From Woeseiaceae bacterium (lineage in GTDB: Bacteria > Pseudomonadota > Gammaproteobacteria > Steroidobacterales > Woeseiaceae): 64,000 nt of DNA. Each line of letters begins with the position of its first letter. Within the stretch, counting starts at the first letter, position 1. The translations under genes were made by a program, and so were the position numbers. Location: positions 62,001 through 126,000 of the forward strand of contig JABDOQ010000082.1 of NCBI GenBank assembly GCA_013043165.1, written 5' to 3'. Below the pieces are notes generated by a model. The model had not been told where the DNA came from. It ran no database searches and was given only the letters and a program-made list of their open reading frames with translations. Of this stretch, positions 5,623 through 40,277 are shown piece after piece.

Positions 5623-7932
5623 CTACGAGCGGCGGAAACGGCTGAAAAAACCGGCCTTGCCCTGTTCTTCAGGCTCGTCTTTTGGTTCCGGGGGGACCTT
5701 GAGCGCCTTCAGCGTCTGCGTTATCGAAGTATTTATTTGATCCTCGATCGGTTTCGGCGGATCGATTTCTCCCGACCCGGTAGCCTTTGATGCTGCAGGT
5801 TTGCGCGGTGTTGAATGCTGGTCGGCATTCAAAGCGCGCACCGTCTTTAAGCGCTGCGAGGCGGATAGATCCGGTCCGGAATTGGGAACGGACTGTTTCG
5901 TTTCCAGGTAAATCTCTTCGGCGAGGTCAGGAACAACAGGAGCGGGCGTCGGCGATGCTTCCTGCTCGAGCGTCAATGCTTCCGGCTCAAGCTGCGGTAT
6001 GTCGGGCTCAAGCTGCGGTATGTCGGGCTCCAGCTGTGGCGTATCCGGCTCGAGCTGTATGGCGTCGTTCGCCGACTCATCTTTGGGCGGATTGGCACGA
6101 ATCTGCGCGGCGATCATGCTGATCCCGGATCCAAACAAGGTCTCGGCCATTTTGTCGTCAATGTCGTCAAGCGTTTTTGCGTTGCCGATTTCCCGGGCGA
6201 TCTTGTCCAGCTCGACCTGCGACTTCGTGCTTTCCGGCGGCAGAATATCCGAAGGTTCCTCAATCAGTAGGTCCCCGATGCCGGTTTCGATGGATTTGTC
6301 CAGGATGATTTCCGGGATCGCTTCTTGCTCTCCGACGCTGTCCGAGGGTTCGTCGGGGGCCGCCGGGGTTTCACCGGGTTTGTCCACCGTTACCCCATGC
6401 GCGAAGGCCATTGCTTGTTCAAGTGCATCAAGATCGGGTTTGAGTTCGGCCAACGTCGGGTCACGATCCCACTCGGGTGTGTCGCCGGTAGCAGCATCTT
6501 CGGCGGCAGGTTCGGGTGGCACTTCCGATTTTGGCTCGCTTTCGGCGACCACTGAAACTGGTTCGAGTTCGAGCTCAGGGATGGACTCCGCGACGGGTTC
6601 GGGTTCGGGTTCCGGTTCGGGCACTTGTGCGTGCTCCGCGATGACCTCGGCAACCGGTTCCGGCTCGAGTTCAGGAATAATCTCGGCGACGGGTTCCGGT
6701 TCGAGTTCAGGAATAATCTCGGTAACCGACTCGAAGTCAGGTCCGGGCTCCGCAACGAGTTCCGGGATCTCTTCCGCCTGGTCGTCCGGAAGCGTTGCGA
6801 ATTGCGGTGCAAGGGTCTTCAGATCCGGCAGCGTATCCTGAATCAGGTGCGGAATGTCGTCATCCTCCTCCGGAGGTTCTTTTGCGTCGTCGGCTAATAC
6901 AACTACGGGCTGCGTTTCACCGGCCTTGGCCGACTCTGACTCCGGCGTCGTCGTCGCGTCGGGTGCGACGTCGACGACAGGCTCTGGCTCGGGCGCTGCT
7001 TCGGGTGCGGCCGCCACGACAGGTTCTGGCTCGGGCGCTGCTTCGGGTGCGGCCGCCACGACCGGCTCCGGGATGGAGAAATCGAAGTCGTCGGCACTGA
7101 GCCCGAATTCATCGGATGCGACTGTCGCAATCAGCGTTGCAGGTATGGTTGGGATACGCTGGCCGGCAGCCGCCACCAAAGTAGACTCGAGCAGGTTGTT
7201 TGCGATTCTGGGAACCCCGTTGCTGAGCACGTGTAGCAGCTCGGCCGACCTCGCGTCAAAAATATGTTCGAAATCGGCGCCAGCCTGTCGGAATCCATGT
7301 ATCAGGTAGCCGCGAAGTTCGGCGACACAAAGTGATGAAATCGTATGACGTTGCCGAACGCGTTGCTGCAACTGTGCGACTTCGGGGTCCTGCATGAATT
7401 GAGGCAGGCGTTCGTCGCCCATCACGATAATGCTGGCACCGTCGGAATCGCCGGCGTCGGAAGCCGTCAGCGCCTCCAGCTCAGCCAGTGTTTCGGCGCC
7501 TGTGCGCAAGCCATCTTCGACAACGATGAAAACCCGAACTTGCGCATCCTGTAATTCCTTCAGTTTTCTTCGAAGCGCCGCGAATCGCTGAATGGTCCCG
7601 TTCGGCCGGTCTTTGACGCCCAATACGATGAGCAGCGATTCCAGTACGTCGCTGCTTTTCATTTCCATGCGGCCTACACGAATCGTCTTGTACTTGGTGC
7701 CAAGCCCCTCAAGCGCGCGGTGAACCAGCGTCGTCTTGCCCGTGCCGACGGGTCCTGAAACGGTAACGACGGCATCCTGGGCGGCCAGCGCCTTTCTGAA
7801 GCCCGCCATGGTCTTGGCAGTCTGGGGCCCGACGAAAACATCGCTACCGGTCGCCTGTGCGGGGAAGGGGCGCTTGTTGAAGCCAAAATGTCGTTCGTAC
7901 ATGGCGGTTCGATCACCTTGTTGCTTTGCCAA
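5623..7932 (-). CDS. ExeA/MshM-like AAA ATPase with long acidic Glu/Pro repeat tail
   Basis: MYERHFGFNKRPFPAQATGSDVFVGP and Walker A GPVGTGKTTL; tandem EPVVAAAPEAAPEP and PELEPEPVAEII repeats. Confidence 0.75.
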   Translation of the reverse strand: MAKQQGDRTAMYERHFGFNKRPFPAQATGSDVFVGPQTAKTMAGFRKALAAQDAVVTVSGPVGTGKTTLVHRALEGLGTKYKTIRVGRMEMKSSDVLESLLIVLGVKDRPNGTIQRFAALRRKLKELQDAQVRVFIVVEDGLRTGAETLAELEALTASDAGDSDGASIIVMGDERLPQFMQDPEVAQLQQRVRQRHTISSLCVAELRGYLIHGFRQAGADFEHIFDARSAELLHVLSNGVPRIANNLLESTLVAAAGQRIPTIPATLIATVASDEFGLSADDFDFSIPEPVVAAAPEAAPEPEPVVAAAPEAAPEPEPVVDVAPDATTTPESESAKAGETQPVVVLADDAKEPPEEDDDIPHLIQDTLPDLKTLAPQFATLPDDQAEEIPELVAEPGPDFESVTEIIPELEPEPVAEIIPELEPEPVAEVIAEHAQVPEPEPEPEPVAESIPELELEPVSVVAESEPKSEVPPEPAAEDAATGDTPEWDRDPTLAELKPDLDALEQAMAFAHGVTVDKPGETPAAPDEPSDSVGEQEAIPEIILDKSIETGIGDLLIEEPSDILPPESTKSQVELDKIAREIGNAKTLDDIDDKMAETLFGSGISMIAAQIRANPPKDESANDAIQLEPDTPQLEPDIPQLEPDIPQLEPEALTLEQEASPTPAPVVPDLAEEIYLETKQSVPNSGPDLSASQRLKTVRALNADQHSTPRKPAASKATGSGEIDPPKPIEDQINTSITQTLKALKVPPEPKDEPEEQGKAGFFSRFRRS
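5985..6060. repeat. About 21-bp in-frame tandem repeat coding (P)QLEPDI
   Basis: Three near-identical copies of ggtatgtcgggctcaagctgc; protein QLEPDTPQLEPDIPQLEPDIPQLEPE. Confidence 0.8.
6975..7070. repeat. 42-bp in-frame tandem repeat coding VVAAAPEAAPEPEP
   Basis: gacgacaggctctggctcgggcgctgcttcgggtgcggccgc repeated at 6975-7016 and 7017-7058, plus a partial copy. Confidence 0.85.
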
Positions 7933-25373: not shown

Positions 25374-27080
25374 CTAACGCCGTCGCTCTGATGCCATTGG
25401 CGATGATCGCCGCTTCGATGATCGCTCCGACTTCCTTTCCGAGCTTTGTCGTGCCGGCGCGGCGGCGGTTGTCCTGCGCTGCGGTTCGGCCCGCCTGGCC
25501 TGGCCCTGCGGTTCGGCTCGTCTCGCCTGGCGCTGTGGTTCGACCCGCCTGGCCTGGCGCTGCGGTTCGGCTCGTCTCGCCTGGCGCTGTGGTTCGGCCT
25601 GCTTGACCGGACGCCGGTGTTCAACACGGCGCGGCTGTTCAACACGGCGCGGCGTGGGATCCGGCGCAGCACGCGCGGTTTCCTGGCGACGCCGCTGCCC
25701 CGTGGCTTCAGCCCGTCGTAACTTGGGCGTCGGTTCAGAACGCCGCTTTTTGGCGTCAAGCCGACGATCCTGTGGATCCTGACTTCGGTCACGCAATTGC
25801 GGCTGCCGCAGCTGTCGGTTTGTGTTGGATCGTGTCCGTGCCGCAGCATCAGTTTGCGGCATCGCACGCGTTGACTGCTGGCGCCTGTCGATACCAGCGG
25901 TACGGCTCGCCGCTGCCGTTCGTGGTCGCTCGCGAAACAAAATCGGCTCACGGAGGACCTCACGGCGACGGGAATTGCTGCGTGCAGTCTGCTTCCGACT
26001 ATCGATCCCTCTGACGCGAGCTGTCGCGTCGTTGGTTCGAGTACTCGGGTAATGACGATTGCGAGTGACACGGCTTCTCGGAACATAGTCGCGCCTGTTG
26101 TAGCGGGGACGCCAGCGGTCACCGCCGTAGTAGCGATTCACCGTAATGTTCGCGTTACCGCCGACGTAGGTGGTGTTGTGGATGACCCTGGTCGGTCGAC
26201 GATACCACCAGCTATCCCGGTAAGAACGGCCATAATAAGGGTGTCCGTAATAGCTGTGGTGGAATACACTCAGGCTGTCGGAATACCAGCCGATCGTAAA
26301 CGCCGTCGTGACGCCCCAGAAATGCCCGCGATTAAAGGCGTGAGCCGACGAGTAAGGATAGTAATAAACCGGATACGGGCGCGGATAGTAGTAATAGACC
26401 GGGCGCGGCTGATAAACAACCACACGCTCGGGCTCATAATAAGGCACGTATATTACGTCTTCGGCAACCGGCGTAATTTCGATGACGCCCTCGCTGCGTG
26501 CTACGTTCTGGTAGGAGTCGCTTTTGAGATTGCCGGCTGCATATGCCCGGTCGCGAAATGTCTCGATCGCGCTGACCACGTCAGACTGCTGCGAGACGAC
26601 AGCCTCGCCGAGGCGCCATGTCCAGTCGATGTCGTCGTTTAGAAGTTCGACTATCTCAGGGTAATTGAGCAGTGCGACGACCGAATCATCCCATTCCGGA
26701 TCCGGTTCGAGCGACGGGTCTTTCTCGAGTGCTTCCAGGAATCGCGCCGCGTCGACGATCTGCAGAGGGTAGGCGGCCGCCGGTAGAACGATCGCCAGCA
26801 GATCATCGGGATACAGCGCGATGGGACCGACCAGTTCCTCTATTTCAACGCTCGAAAGCAACGGGATATCCTCATTGCCGGTCGCTGGCTCTGAGTATTG
26901 CTCTTCGAAAGCGCCGATGACTTCGCCGTTTTCATCCACTGGCACCTGCGCCAGTGCCGCCGCCGGCACTAGTGCCAGCAGCCAGAATGAGGCGACGGTA
27001 GTTCTTGCCAATCCGAATTTGGCGTATGGTCGGTTTTTCATGCGGCCTCCCGGTCCATAACATCTTGCGGACCTGTCCAT
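25374..27080 (-). CDS. DUF3300 domain-containing secreted protein with Arg-rich repeat tail
   Basis: LSSVEIEELVGPIALYPDDLLAIVLPAAAYPLQIVDAARFLE; Tyr-rich middle; start probably internal (MKNRPYAKFG). Confidence 0.85.
   Translation of the reverse strand: MDRSARCYGPGGRMKNRPYAKFGLARTTVASFWLLALVPAAALAQVPVDENGEVIGAFEEQYSEPATGNEDIPLLSSVEIEELVGPIALYPDDLLAIVLPAAAYPLQIVDAARFLEALEKDPSLEPDPEWDDSVVALLNYPEIVELLNDDIDWTWRLGEAVVSQQSDVVSAIETFRDRAYAAGNLKSDSYQNVARSEGVIEITPVAEDVIYVPYYEPERVVVYQPRPVYYYYPRPYPVYYYPYSSAHAFNRGHFWGVTTAFTIGWYSDSLSVFHHSYYGHPYYGRSYRDSWWYRRPTRVIHNTTYVGGNANITVNRYYGGDRWRPRYNRRDYVPRSRVTRNRHYPSTRTNDATARVRGIDSRKQTARSNSRRREVLREPILFRERPRTAAASRTAGIDRRQQSTRAMPQTDAAARTRSNTNRQLRQPQLRDRSQDPQDRRLDAKKRRSEPTPKLRRAEATGQRRRQETARAAPDPTPRRVEQPRRVEHRRPVKQAEPQRQARRAEPQRQARRVEPQRQARRAEPQGQARRAEPQRRTTAAAPARQSSERKSERSSKRRSSPMASERRR
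25480..25610. repeat. 27-bp in-frame tandem repeats coding QARRAEPQR
   Basis: gcctggcgctgcggttcggctcgtctc variants; protein PQRQARRAEPQRQARRVEPQRQARRAEPQGQARRAEPQRRT. Confidence 0.8.
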
Positions 27081-33515: not shown

Positions 33516-34664
33516 TCAGGCCTGGCCCTGAGGTGGCTTGTCGTGCTCGGCGTCGGAATAGTAGACCCAGACATTTTCTTCGCCGCTCAGCAATTCGATG
33601 TATTTGGGATGTACAAAAATATTCTCTCGCCCGGACTTGATTTCCCGAAGTATGCCGATTTCACACAGTTGCTTCAGGTACACGGATGCCGTCTGTCGTT
33701 TGGCAATGCCGGCATCGACCAGGTTGCCGATGCGACAATAGGGCTGCCTGAACAGGAGCTCGACTAATTCCCAGGAATAGATCTTGGGTAAACGCGACTG
33801 AACGTATTGACCCGTATGCTCCATGAGTTCGCGGATCGACTTGATTTTGTCCGTCGTCCAGCTGCAGGTCTCCTCGACGCCTTCGAGTACGAAGAAAATC
33901 CATGCGGCCCAGTCCTGTTCCACGGTTACGTTTTGCAGTAACCGATAGTACGCGGCTTTGTTCTGGATGATGTAACGGCTCAGGTAAAGGATCGGCGAGT
34001 CGAGCAGTCCGTGCTGAACCAGGAACAGAATGTTCATAATGCGCCCGGTGCGACCGTTGCCGTCGGCGAACGGGTGGATCGCCTCGAACTGGTAGTGCTG
34101 CACGGCCATGCGCACCAGTGGATCGAATTCCGTATTGCGATGCATGAAGTCGGCCCAGTTATCCAGTTGCTGGATAAGCAGTTTTTGGCCCACCGGGGGC
34201 GTGTAAATAACCTCCCCTGACATTCGGTTTTTCAGCGTCGTGCCGGGCTCTGCACGAATATCCAGTTCCATTCCTTTGACGGTGCTGCAGACTTGAATCG
34301 CCATATCGGTGGTAAGCATGCCGCGGCGGACCATCTTGGTACCTTCATAGAGCGCTGTCCGGTAGCGCAGTGCCTCCTTGGTCGCGGCGTCGGCACGGTC
34401 TTCGGCAATGTCGGCAAACTCGAACAGCTTGTCGGTGGTCGTGACGATGTTCTCGATTTCCGAACTCGCCTGGGCCTCGAGCAATGGCAGTGCGTTGACG
34501 AGCACGGCTGAGTTCGGAATGAGCTCAGCCGCCTGCTTCAGTTCCGCCAGGGACACACGGGCCTTGATACAGCGTTTCAGAATCGCTGTCGTCTCAATGC
34601 ATTCCGCCGGCGGGGGCAGCTCCGGCAGCCCGTTATAGGGTAAAGATGGATTAAAATCAGTCAT
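33516..34664 (-). CDS. Class II Fic family protein (AMPylase-like) with C-terminal winged helix
   Basis: HPFADGNGRTGR Fic motif; N-terminal inhibitory motif SSEIEN; C-terminal wHTH. Confidence 0.93.
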   Translation of the reverse strand: MTDFNPSLPYNGLPELPPPAECIETTAILKRCIKARVSLAELKQAAELIPNSAVLVNALPLLEAQASSEIENIVTTTDKLFEFADIAEDRADAATKEALRYRTALYEGTKMVRRGMLTTDMAIQVCSTVKGMELDIRAEPGTTLKNRMSGEVIYTPPVGQKLLIQQLDNWADFMHRNTEFDPLVRMAVQHYQFEAIHPFADGNGRTGRIMNILFLVQHGLLDSPILYLSRYIIQNKAAYYRLLQNVTVEQDWAAWIFFVLEGVEETCSWTTDKIKSIRELMEHTGQYVQSRLPKIYSWELVELLFRQPYCRIGNLVDAGIAKRQTASVYLKQLCEIGILREIKSGRENIFVHPKYIELLSGEENVWVYYSDAEHDKPPQGQA

Positions 34665-34693
34665 TTATGATAGGCCTTGCCGTCAGTACCTTG

Positions 34694-34833
34694 TGTCGAT
34701 GGCATCGACATAATAAAGAAACGTGTCGAAAAAAGCCCAATTTATCGACATATTTGTCGAAAGTGTCGCCGCAATCGACGTATTTTCTGAATATGTCGAA
34801 ATTCCGTCCTATTTTCGACAGGTACGCAGTATA
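34694..34833. repeat. Phased array of TGTCGA/TCGACA half-sites, two diverged 70-bp units
   Basis: Half-sites at 34694, 34705, 34724, 34745, 34755, 34764(TGTCGC), 34775(TCGACG), 34794, 34815; N5 and N15 pairs alternate. Confidence 0.85.
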
Positions 34834-34985
34834 GGTCGATTGCATCGGCAGGTTCGTGAACCAGGTACCAGTACGCGAGCGGCGTCCCGGAGTAGGGACA
34901 ATCCACAGGCTGTGGGCCGCGCCCCGCTGGGACGTTTGCTATAGAATTCGACGCCACTTCAATTGCGTTGCCATAAGGACGAACC

Positions 34986-36662
34986 GTGACCGTAAAAAGT
35001 GACATTGAAATTGCCCAGGCTGCCAAAGTCAGGCCAATTCAGGAAATCGCCGCGAAGATCGGCGTGCCGATCGACGCGCTCATGCCCTACGGTCATGACA
35101 AGGCGAAGATCAGCGCAGACTTCATTAACTCGCTGAGCCGGTCACAGGACGGCAAGTTGATCCTGGTTACAGCGGTCTCGCCCACGCCGGCGGGAGAGGG
35201 CAAAACAACGACGACGGTCGGTCTGGGGGACGCGCTTGGCAAGCTCGGCAAGAATGCGATTATCTGCCTGCGCGAGCCGAGTCTCGGTCCGTGTTTCGGC
35301 ATGAAAGGCGGCGCGGCCGGTGGTGGCTATGCCCAGGTTGTTCCGATGGCCGACATCAACCTGCACTTCACGGGTGACTTCCACGCGATCGGTGCGGCCA
35401 ACAACTTGCTGGCGGCCTTGATCGACAATCACATGCACTGGGACAACGCGCTGGATATCGATCCGCGTCGGGTCACCTGGCGGCGTGTCGTTGACATGAA
35501 CGATCGTGCACTTCGATCCGTGACCTCTGGCCTGGGCGGATATAACAACGGCGTCGTGCGCGAAGCAGGTTTCGATATTACGGTCGCATCGGAAATCATG
35601 GCTATTTTCTGCCTGTCGACCGATCTCAAGGACCTGGAAAATCGGCTGGGTGATATCGTGCTCGGTGCCACGCGCAGCAATGAGCCCATCACCGTCAGGG
35701 AACTCAATGCACACGGAGCGATGACGGCGTTGCTGCGCGACGCATTTCAGCCAAACCTGGTTCAGACGATGGAGAACAACCCGGCGCTGATGCACGGCGG
35801 CCCGTTCGCAAATATCGCACACGGCTGCAATTCCGTCATTGCGACGACTACCGCTATGAAGCTCGCCGACTATGTCGTTACGGAGGCTGGATTCGGCGCC
35901 GACCTCGGGGCTGAGAAATTCTTCAACATCAAGTGCCGCAAAGCGGGACTCTCACCCGATGCTGTCGTTTTGGTTGCTACGATCAAGGCGCTCAAGATGC
36001 AGGGCGGCGTCGCGAAGACGGATCTTGGAGTCGAAAACGTCAAAGCGGTACAGATTGGATGCAAGAATCTCGAACGTCATATTCGTAACCTCGGCAAGTT
36101 CGGGGTTCCAGAGGTGGTCGCGATCAATCGCTACACGGCCGACAGCGACGAGGAAGTTCAGGTTGTTCGTGATTTCTGTCACAAATATGGTGTTCGTGCC
36201 GTCGACTGCACACACTGGGCCGATGGAGGTGCAGGTGCCGTGGAGCTCGCTGAACACGTCGTCGGACTGTGCGACAGTGGCGCTGCCCAGTTTCGTACAC
36301 TGTACGACGATGACATGTCGCTGTGGGAGAAAACTGCAACGATCGCCCGGGAAATCTATGGCGCCGACGATATCATCGCCGACAAGAAAGTGCGTGCAGA
36401 GTTCGCGAGGTTTGAGCGTGAAGGGCGCGGTAAATACCCAATTTGCATGGCCAAGACCCAGTATAGTTTTTCCACCGATCCGAACCTGCTTGGTGCGCCT
36501 TCCGGCCACCATGTGCCTATTCGGGAAATCCGGCTCGCCGCCGGTGCCGAATTCCTGGTCGTCGTATGCGGAGAAATCATGACTATGCCGGGATTGCCGC
36601 GAGTCCCGGCTGCAAATTCCATTCGGGTCAACGACGCAGGTCGAATCGAGGGACTGTTCTAG
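34986..36662 (+). CDS. fhs: Formate-tetrahydrofolate ligase
   Basis: [43 protein letters not shown]; 558 aa. Confidence 0.96.
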
Positions 36663-39943: not shown

Positions 39944-39959
39944 TGTGCGACGTATCACA
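39944..39959. promoter_or_regulatory. Candidate CRP-like site
   Basis: TGTGCGACGTATCACA vs TGTGA-N6-TCACA (9/10). Confidence 0.45.
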
Positions 39960-40097
39960 GCTCCGAAAATTTTGCCGGTTTATGTCAAATCTCCCCAATC
40001 TGCCGGATTTTGCGGGCGGCCGCAGCGCGTTGGCAGGGGTAGCTTGAGATGGCGCAGGACGCGCGTCAGTAAAAAGGCATTCAACAAGGAGATGGAA

Positions 40098-40277
40098 ATG
40101 CGTGAACTAACGATGAGTGAAGTTGAGTTTGTATCGGGTGGGTGCACACCGGGCAGCAGTAATACATTCGGCGGAATTCGAGATACCTACGGTTTGGGTC
40201 AGGACATTATCAATATCTATGAAGGACTCATTGAGGCGACTTCGTACGTCATCGAACGCGTCGCAAACGCTCTGTGA
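40098..40277 (+). CDS. 59-aa double-glycine-leader (microcin/class II bacteriocin-like) peptide
   Basis: MRELTMSEVEFVSGG leader, 44-aa core CTPGSSNTFGG...; AAGGAG SD with 6-nt spacing; own terminator. Confidence 0.75.
   Translation: MRELTMSEVEFVSGGCTPGSSNTFGGIRDTYGLGQDIINIYEGLIEATSYVIERVANAL

Follow-up and report, generated by a model that had tools for sequence, protein, structure and literature searches.

A lattice of TGTCGA palindromes upstream of a Woeseiaceae fic gene as the probable operator of SoFic itself

The array of TGTCGA and TCGACA half-sites in front of the fic gene of a Woeseiaceae bacterium (contig JABDOQ010000082.1) is most probably the operator of the gene's own product, the AMPylase SoFic, whose dimers would bind it cooperatively and thereby repress the fic promoter. 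The window, i.e., the whole stretch of 64,000 nucleotides that was analysed, had been read before, and autoregulation by the Fic protein was put forward in that first-pass annotation as a plausible idea. The idea now finds strong, although indirect, support: the half-sites appear to change together with the recognition helix of the protein, a promoter can be placed inside the operator, and the exact spacings of the array are unique in the genome.

The fic gene (33516–34664, reverse strand) encodes a protein of 382 residues, assigned to the SoFic family of class II Fic AMPylases by NF046030, Pfam, PADLOC and PDB matches. Its score against NCBIfam NF046030 (protein adenylyltransferase Fic) is 585.8 bits, above the curated equivalog cut-off of 550; the Pfam domains Fic_N, Fic and SoFic-like_C are recognised, and PADLOC calls the product SoFic. 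The nearest solved relatives, both by sequence and by fold, are the Shewanella SoFic structures (PDB 3eqx/3zcn/9tch), and the AlphaFold2 model matches 3zcn with a TM-score of 0.91. The protein shares its family model, domain order and fold with SoFic/SO_4266 and EcSofic (PDB 3eqx, 3zcn, 9tch). The entries 9tb0, 9tc4, 9tch and 9tcl of the 2026 PDB copy are SoFic structures, and a DNA complex may be among them. The inhibitory motif SSEIEN (residues 67–72) fits (S/T)xxxE(G/N), the Fic motif HPFADGNGRTGR is present, with HPFADGNGR at residues 197–205 fitting HPFx[D/E]GNGR, and both SSEIEN and HPFADGNGR fall in conserved columns of the protein alignment A1. The C-terminal winged helix-turn-helix (wHTH) comprises residues 298–351 (33612–33773, reverse strand), as defined by PF21248 SoFic-like_C (residues 280–355, E 3.7e-37) and by the AlphaFold2 model (mean pLDDT 86.5), with helices at 298–306, 312–317 and 323–335 and strands at 340–351. 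The two motifs and the winged helix named in the first-pass annotation are thus all found, by motif reading, PF21248 and the model. The helix at residues 323–335 (RQTASVYLKQL..., 33660–33698, reverse strand) is the predicted recognition helix, with residues 324, 325, 327 and 328 covarying with the half-site. Judged by family score, motifs, C-terminal domain and fold, the fic product is a SoFic.

The occurrence of the array in front of this gene is not due to chance. Seven exact TGTCGA/TCGACA half-sites lie within 127 bp of the array, whereas no other 127-bp stretch of the window has more than two; the Poisson probability of at least seven in 127 bp is about 4e-11. Direct mapping reproduced all nine half-sites of the first-pass annotation, degenerate ones included, each with its position and strand, and the start codon at 34664 indeed lies 30 bp from the array edge. 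Half-site mapping and the alignment of relatives place the operator array at 34694–34850; it consists of five palindromes in the order 17-27-17-27-17, with 13 bp between neighbours. These are a short palindrome TGTCGA-N5-TCGACA of 17 bp (34694–34710), a long palindrome TGTCGA-N15-TCGACA of 27 bp (34724–34750), a degenerate short palindrome TGTCGC-N5-TCGACG (34764–34780), a second long palindrome TGTCGA-N15-TCGACA (34794–34820) and a distal, again degenerate, short palindrome GGTCGA-N5-TCGGCA (34834–34850). The last of these was absent from the earlier description, which was correct for the part it covered; the pair sits on the same lattice and moves the end of the array to 34850. The forward-strand TGTCGA at 34755–34760, formerly counted with the rest, is present in the sequence, but it was rejected as a lattice member, since its position does not fit the lattice and relatives do not conserve it. 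The division into two diverged 70-bp units conserved mainly at the half-sites is borne out, with 38 of 70 positions identical, namely 22/24 inside the half-sites and 16/46 elsewhere; 5000 null draws averaged 17/70 and never exceeded 34. The proposal that the half-sites occupy one DNA face holds only approximately: each single offset (11, 19 or 21 bp) is near one or two helical turns, but together they add up to 70 bp per unit.

The same lattice recurs at SoFic genes far from the Woeseiaceae. The comparison covered the DNA upstream of 43 SoFic genes classed as Woeseiaceae-like and of 66 classed as distant, the latter spanning Proteobacteria, Verrucomicrobia, Acidobacteria, Cyanobacteria, Spirochaetes and Planctomycetes. 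In both sets the start-to-start offset from TGTCGA to TCGACA, inside a palindrome, is 21 or 11 bp, and that from TCGACA to TGTCGA, between palindromes, is 19 bp (121/132 and 60/75). Half-site spacing upstream of homologous fic genes, which the first-pass annotation had set as its refutation test, is therefore conserved across phyla. Half-site density near the gene is put at 27–48 per kb. In Woeseiaceae it reaches 40–48 per kb in the 200 bp nearest fic; at distant loci it is mostly 19–39 per kb within about 125 bp of fic, compared with 0.63 per kb elsewhere in the same loci. When all 6-mers were scanned at all offsets, with no prior choice, TCGACA-19-TGTCGA ranked first (39/66 distant loci). 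Half-sites predicted from an anchor palindrome were found at the lattice positions upstream in 36–39 of 48 loci, and in none for the shifted controls. The commonest distant form is 27-13-17-13-27, with its last half-site entering the start codon (TCGAC|ATG or TAAAC|ATG), and the invariant columns in the alignment of six Woeseiaceae upstream regions (A2) are mainly half-sites and TATACT. A recognisable array was not found at some SoFic loci, e.g., L041, L050 and L071. As read from these comparisons, the array is a chain of 17-bp and 27-bp palindromes at 13-bp separation, a family-wide rather than a local feature.

The lattice also appears to be confined to this setting. A pattern search of the home genome located the N5-spaced pairs, the N15-spaced pairs and the exact TCGACA-N13-TGTCGA at this array only; in the genomes of relatives, TCGACA-N13-TGTCGA clusters beside fic, and the other listed matches are single. 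In E. coli, a sofic-homologous stretch occurs in 285 of 5426 complete genomes, and the sofic loci have the TGTCGA/TCGACA array. The array is likewise present, partly degenerate, at a SoFic copy on a Salmonella plasmid, and on two viral contigs with a SoFic gene; a viral scan with one protein as query matched that protein alone. As separate observations, the Salmonella copy (pCFSAN000924, L221, 2995–4071) lies with its array on a conjugative plasmid, within a type IV secretion operon, where VirB4 is on one side and later T4SS genes are on the other, and in E. coli S10 (L285, 1533–3833) sofic is annotated as frameshifted and is directly followed by a second Fic family gene.

The promoter call for the window rests on the comparison of loci, since a sigma-70 consensus scan of the window region found no promoter. 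At loci outside the Woeseiaceae, the hexamer preceding the short palindrome agrees with TTGACA at 3.85 of 6 positions (null 1.54, sd 0.18), and the hexamer following it agrees with TATAAT at 3.03 (null 1.64). In these loci TTGAC stands before 15 of 39 short palindromes but before none of the 66 long ones, and it is this −35 element that discriminates, because long palindromes too have A/T-rich flanks with some −10 similarity. With TTGAC before the short palindromes and a TATAAT-like hexamer after them, the 17-bp palindrome can therefore be read as the promoter spacer; many distant loci show TTGAC[AG]-palindrome-TAnnnT, with the palindrome in the −35/−10 spacer position. The promoter is kept where the half-sites have changed, as in TTGACG-TGTCGCCCCCAGCGACA-TAAGCT at L035 and TTGACC-TGTCACTTCTGGTGACA-TATGCT at L054. 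In Woeseiaceae the −35 hexamers are poor, and TATACT comes directly after the palindrome in 35 of 39 loci; its distance from the ATG is mostly about 169 or about 240 bases, values that differ by one 70-bp unit. In the window, the putative −10 element TATACT (34828–34833, reverse strand), invariant in A2, and the −35 position (34851–34856, reverse strand) flank the distal short palindrome, which would form the spacer of the fic promoter; the −35 hexamer is CGAACC, a weak match, where TTGAC[AG] is common in distant relatives.

An indirect indication that SoFic reads these sites comes from groups in which both the half-site letters after TGT and the recognition helix (residues 323–335) differ. 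Helices with RQ[TA]AS and no R328 pair with TGTCGA, RQAASR pairs with TGTCG[TC], and ERRAASR pairs with TGTCAC; the HPYT group, which is related, combines R[LIM]TAT with TGTATA and RQTAA with TGTTAA. The combination A325+R328 goes with TGTCG[TC], TGTCAC or other sites, not with TGTCGA: at least two TGTCGA are found upstream of 3/14 genes with A325+R328 vs 98/113 others, the latter including a few HPYT-group genes (Fisher 8.6e-7). Mutual information over all protein columns was dropped as proof of such a code, as helix positions in the HPYT family are inseparable from clade markers, and a tree-based comparison took its place, with the tree built from the Fic part without the wHTH. About six changes are needed to place the A325+R328 state on this tree, and departures of the operator from TGTCGA accompany that state in separate places (L232, L054, L031, L255 and a Burkholderiales group); L057, which stands beside the Burkholderiales group but has T325, retains TGTCGA. 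One exception is L044, with mixed TGTCGA/TGTCGT sites despite A325+R328, and a clear operator site was not found at L041 and L065. Such joint switching, as reconstructed on the tree, is what is expected of a protein reading its own operator and not of an unrelated regulator.

Arrays of other composition were also observed beyond SoFic. A sister Fic group with FxHPYT in the wHTH (L117, L118, L119, L123–L128, L146, L245, L246 and L258) has its own TGTATA or TGTTAA arrays in the upstream 200 bp, sharing the 27-bp palindrome length. More distant Fic-wHTH genes of about 27% identity, from viral contigs (L152–L156, L183, L190, L194; L196, L202, L215), show other half-sites in the same interval, namely AAAGGAT/ATCCTTT with 24- and 33-bp spans and TGAAATAA/TTATTTCA. 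Since these distant genes have arrays of their own, self-operators may be general for Fic-wHTH proteins.

In the mechanism that we propose, SoFic dimers would read the TGTCGA half-sites via the recognition helix of the C-terminal winged helix, and the alternation of 17-bp and 27-bp palindromes, 13 bp apart, would let several dimers pack cooperatively on the DNA. One short palindrome would be the exact 17-bp −35/−10 spacer; once it is occupied, RNA polymerase would be blocked and SoFic synthesis self-repressed. In Woeseiaceae, the DNA from the inferred promoter to the start codon contains the further palindromes, and this long stretch, once occupied, could serve as a roadblock and as cooperative reinforcement. 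By such self-repression, an anti-phage AMPylase that is potentially toxic would limit its own amount and stay scarce. The sequences themselves show the array with its near-fixed lattice and its conservation, the hexamers that flank the short palindrome, and the joint switching of helix and half-site. We strongly infer that SoFic is the binding partner of the array, and we infer repression rather than activation of the fic promoter, two modes that sequence alone cannot tell apart; the dimer as binding unit, the cooperativity and the physiological reason are presumed.

A farther-reaching form of this reading, to which we attach only a low probability, takes the array itself as the antitoxin: on a SoFic-wide operator lattice with an evolvable recognition code, several assembled dimers would both silence the promoter and keep the enzyme non-toxic. 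Protein stripped from host DNA in phage infection would then free active AMPylase. Somewhat less probable still is that the array mainly controls the enzyme, bound SoFic being inactive or deAMPylating and its release from DNA freeing the toxin. For CbFic2, a related Fic that also has a wHTH, a change from AMPylation to deAMPylation on DNA binding has been reported (PMC10628234), EcSofic toxicity requires the CTD-AMPylase interface (PMC12249575), and Woeseiaceae arrays have more sites than simple repression requires. Such control, however, does not require a promoter in exact register inside the operator, and a single-copy array has room for only a few dimers. Control of SoFic activity by DNA is thus a live alternative, or an addition, to autorepression.

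Regulation of fic by another host transcription factor with TGTCGA as its site is very unlikely. Palindromic half-sites would fit many wHTH or HTH repressors and point to none specifically, but the half-site letters switch with Fic's own recognition-helix residues in several lineages, the array travels with the gene over phyla, plasmids and viral contigs, and its exact spacings occur nowhere else in the home genome. Slightly less likely again is that the repeats act at the RNA level by forming hairpins in the 5′ leader of fic. The Woeseiaceae array is downstream of the inferred promoter, so it would be transcribed, and the palindromes are able to form hairpins; yet the same half-site sequence recurs across phyla with no compensated pairs, a fixed 13-bp gap is not a hairpin requirement, the array straddles the promoter in most distant loci, and an Rfam search gave no match. 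A role for the divergent fhs gene (formate-tetrahydrofolate ligase, PF01268; 34986–36662, forward strand), whose start lies about 136 bp past the array end and which neighbours fic in many Woeseiaceae, was rejected as extremely unlikely, since fhs stands beside fic only in Woeseiaceae loci among L001–L110, arrays occur at distant SoFic loci although none of these has an adjacent fhs, and TATACT points toward fic.

Autorepression by SoFic would have one precedent. CccR of Yersinia pseudotuberculosis, a class II Fic protein with a C-terminal HTH that is secreted by the T6SS, binds as a dimer to a palindrome in its own promoter and represses itself; its identity to SO_4266 is about 29% over 45% of SO_4266, by the value given in the same paper (PMC9755527). 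Both systems combine such a protein with palindromic sites over its own promoter, for SoFic as judged from sequence only. The CccR operator, however, is one pair, AGATAATCAT-N26-ATGATAATCT, in contrast to the multi-palindrome TGTCGA lattice with N5 and N15 described here; SoFic thus appears to work like CccR without the CccR operator, and hence is not a CccR. CbFic2 of Coxiella burnetii, too, is a class II Fic that binds DNA and has its wHTH at the C-terminus, but only random DNA was tested, no specific site is known, and binding was tied to enzyme switching, not to promoter control (PMC10628234). As in type II toxin-antitoxin systems, a toxin-linked DNA-binding protein would repress its own gene; unlike in those systems, toxin and DNA-binding domain form one polypeptide, and a separate antitoxin-repressor is not needed. 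The papers on SoFic and EcSofic treat autoinhibition, dimerisation and the AS1 antitoxin and describe no operator (PMC3667792, PMC12249575); the 2025 EcSofic paper leaves the control of EcSofic toxicity open (PMC12249575), and according to a 2023 paper DNA binding by SoFic had not been demonstrated by then (PMC10628234). A search of the open literature, with subscription papers and preprints outside it, joined TGTCGA with Fic nowhere. Fic autorepression as such is already known from CccR, and what appears new is the operator architecture and the recognition code.

SoFic is a widespread anti-phage AMPylase, and its C-terminal domain and control have been described as unresolved (PMC12249575, PMC10628234). 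For this domain the analysis predicts an exact DNA target, and it supplies a promoter architecture together with a residue-to-base specificity table. If confirmed, the operator would explain how a single-gene toxin is held at a low level without a separate antitoxin repressor, and how horizontally moved copies could escape cross-regulation by joint change of helix and half-site.

Some further observations concern the genomic setting. In Woeseiaceae (33516–36662 in the window; L001–L013 and L082–L110), SoFic occurs commonly throughout the genus, in many cases in divergent orientation to fhs, a setting unlike the mobile defence islands described for sofic. Elsewhere in the window, a small forward-strand ORF at 39945–40277 contains MRELTMSEVEFVSGG, a stretch resembling the double-glycine leader peptides found in precursors of bacteriocin or RiPP type. 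TRF tandem repeats at 25476–25599 and 5984–7068 have periods that are all divisible by three (27/54, 21, 36 and 42 bp).
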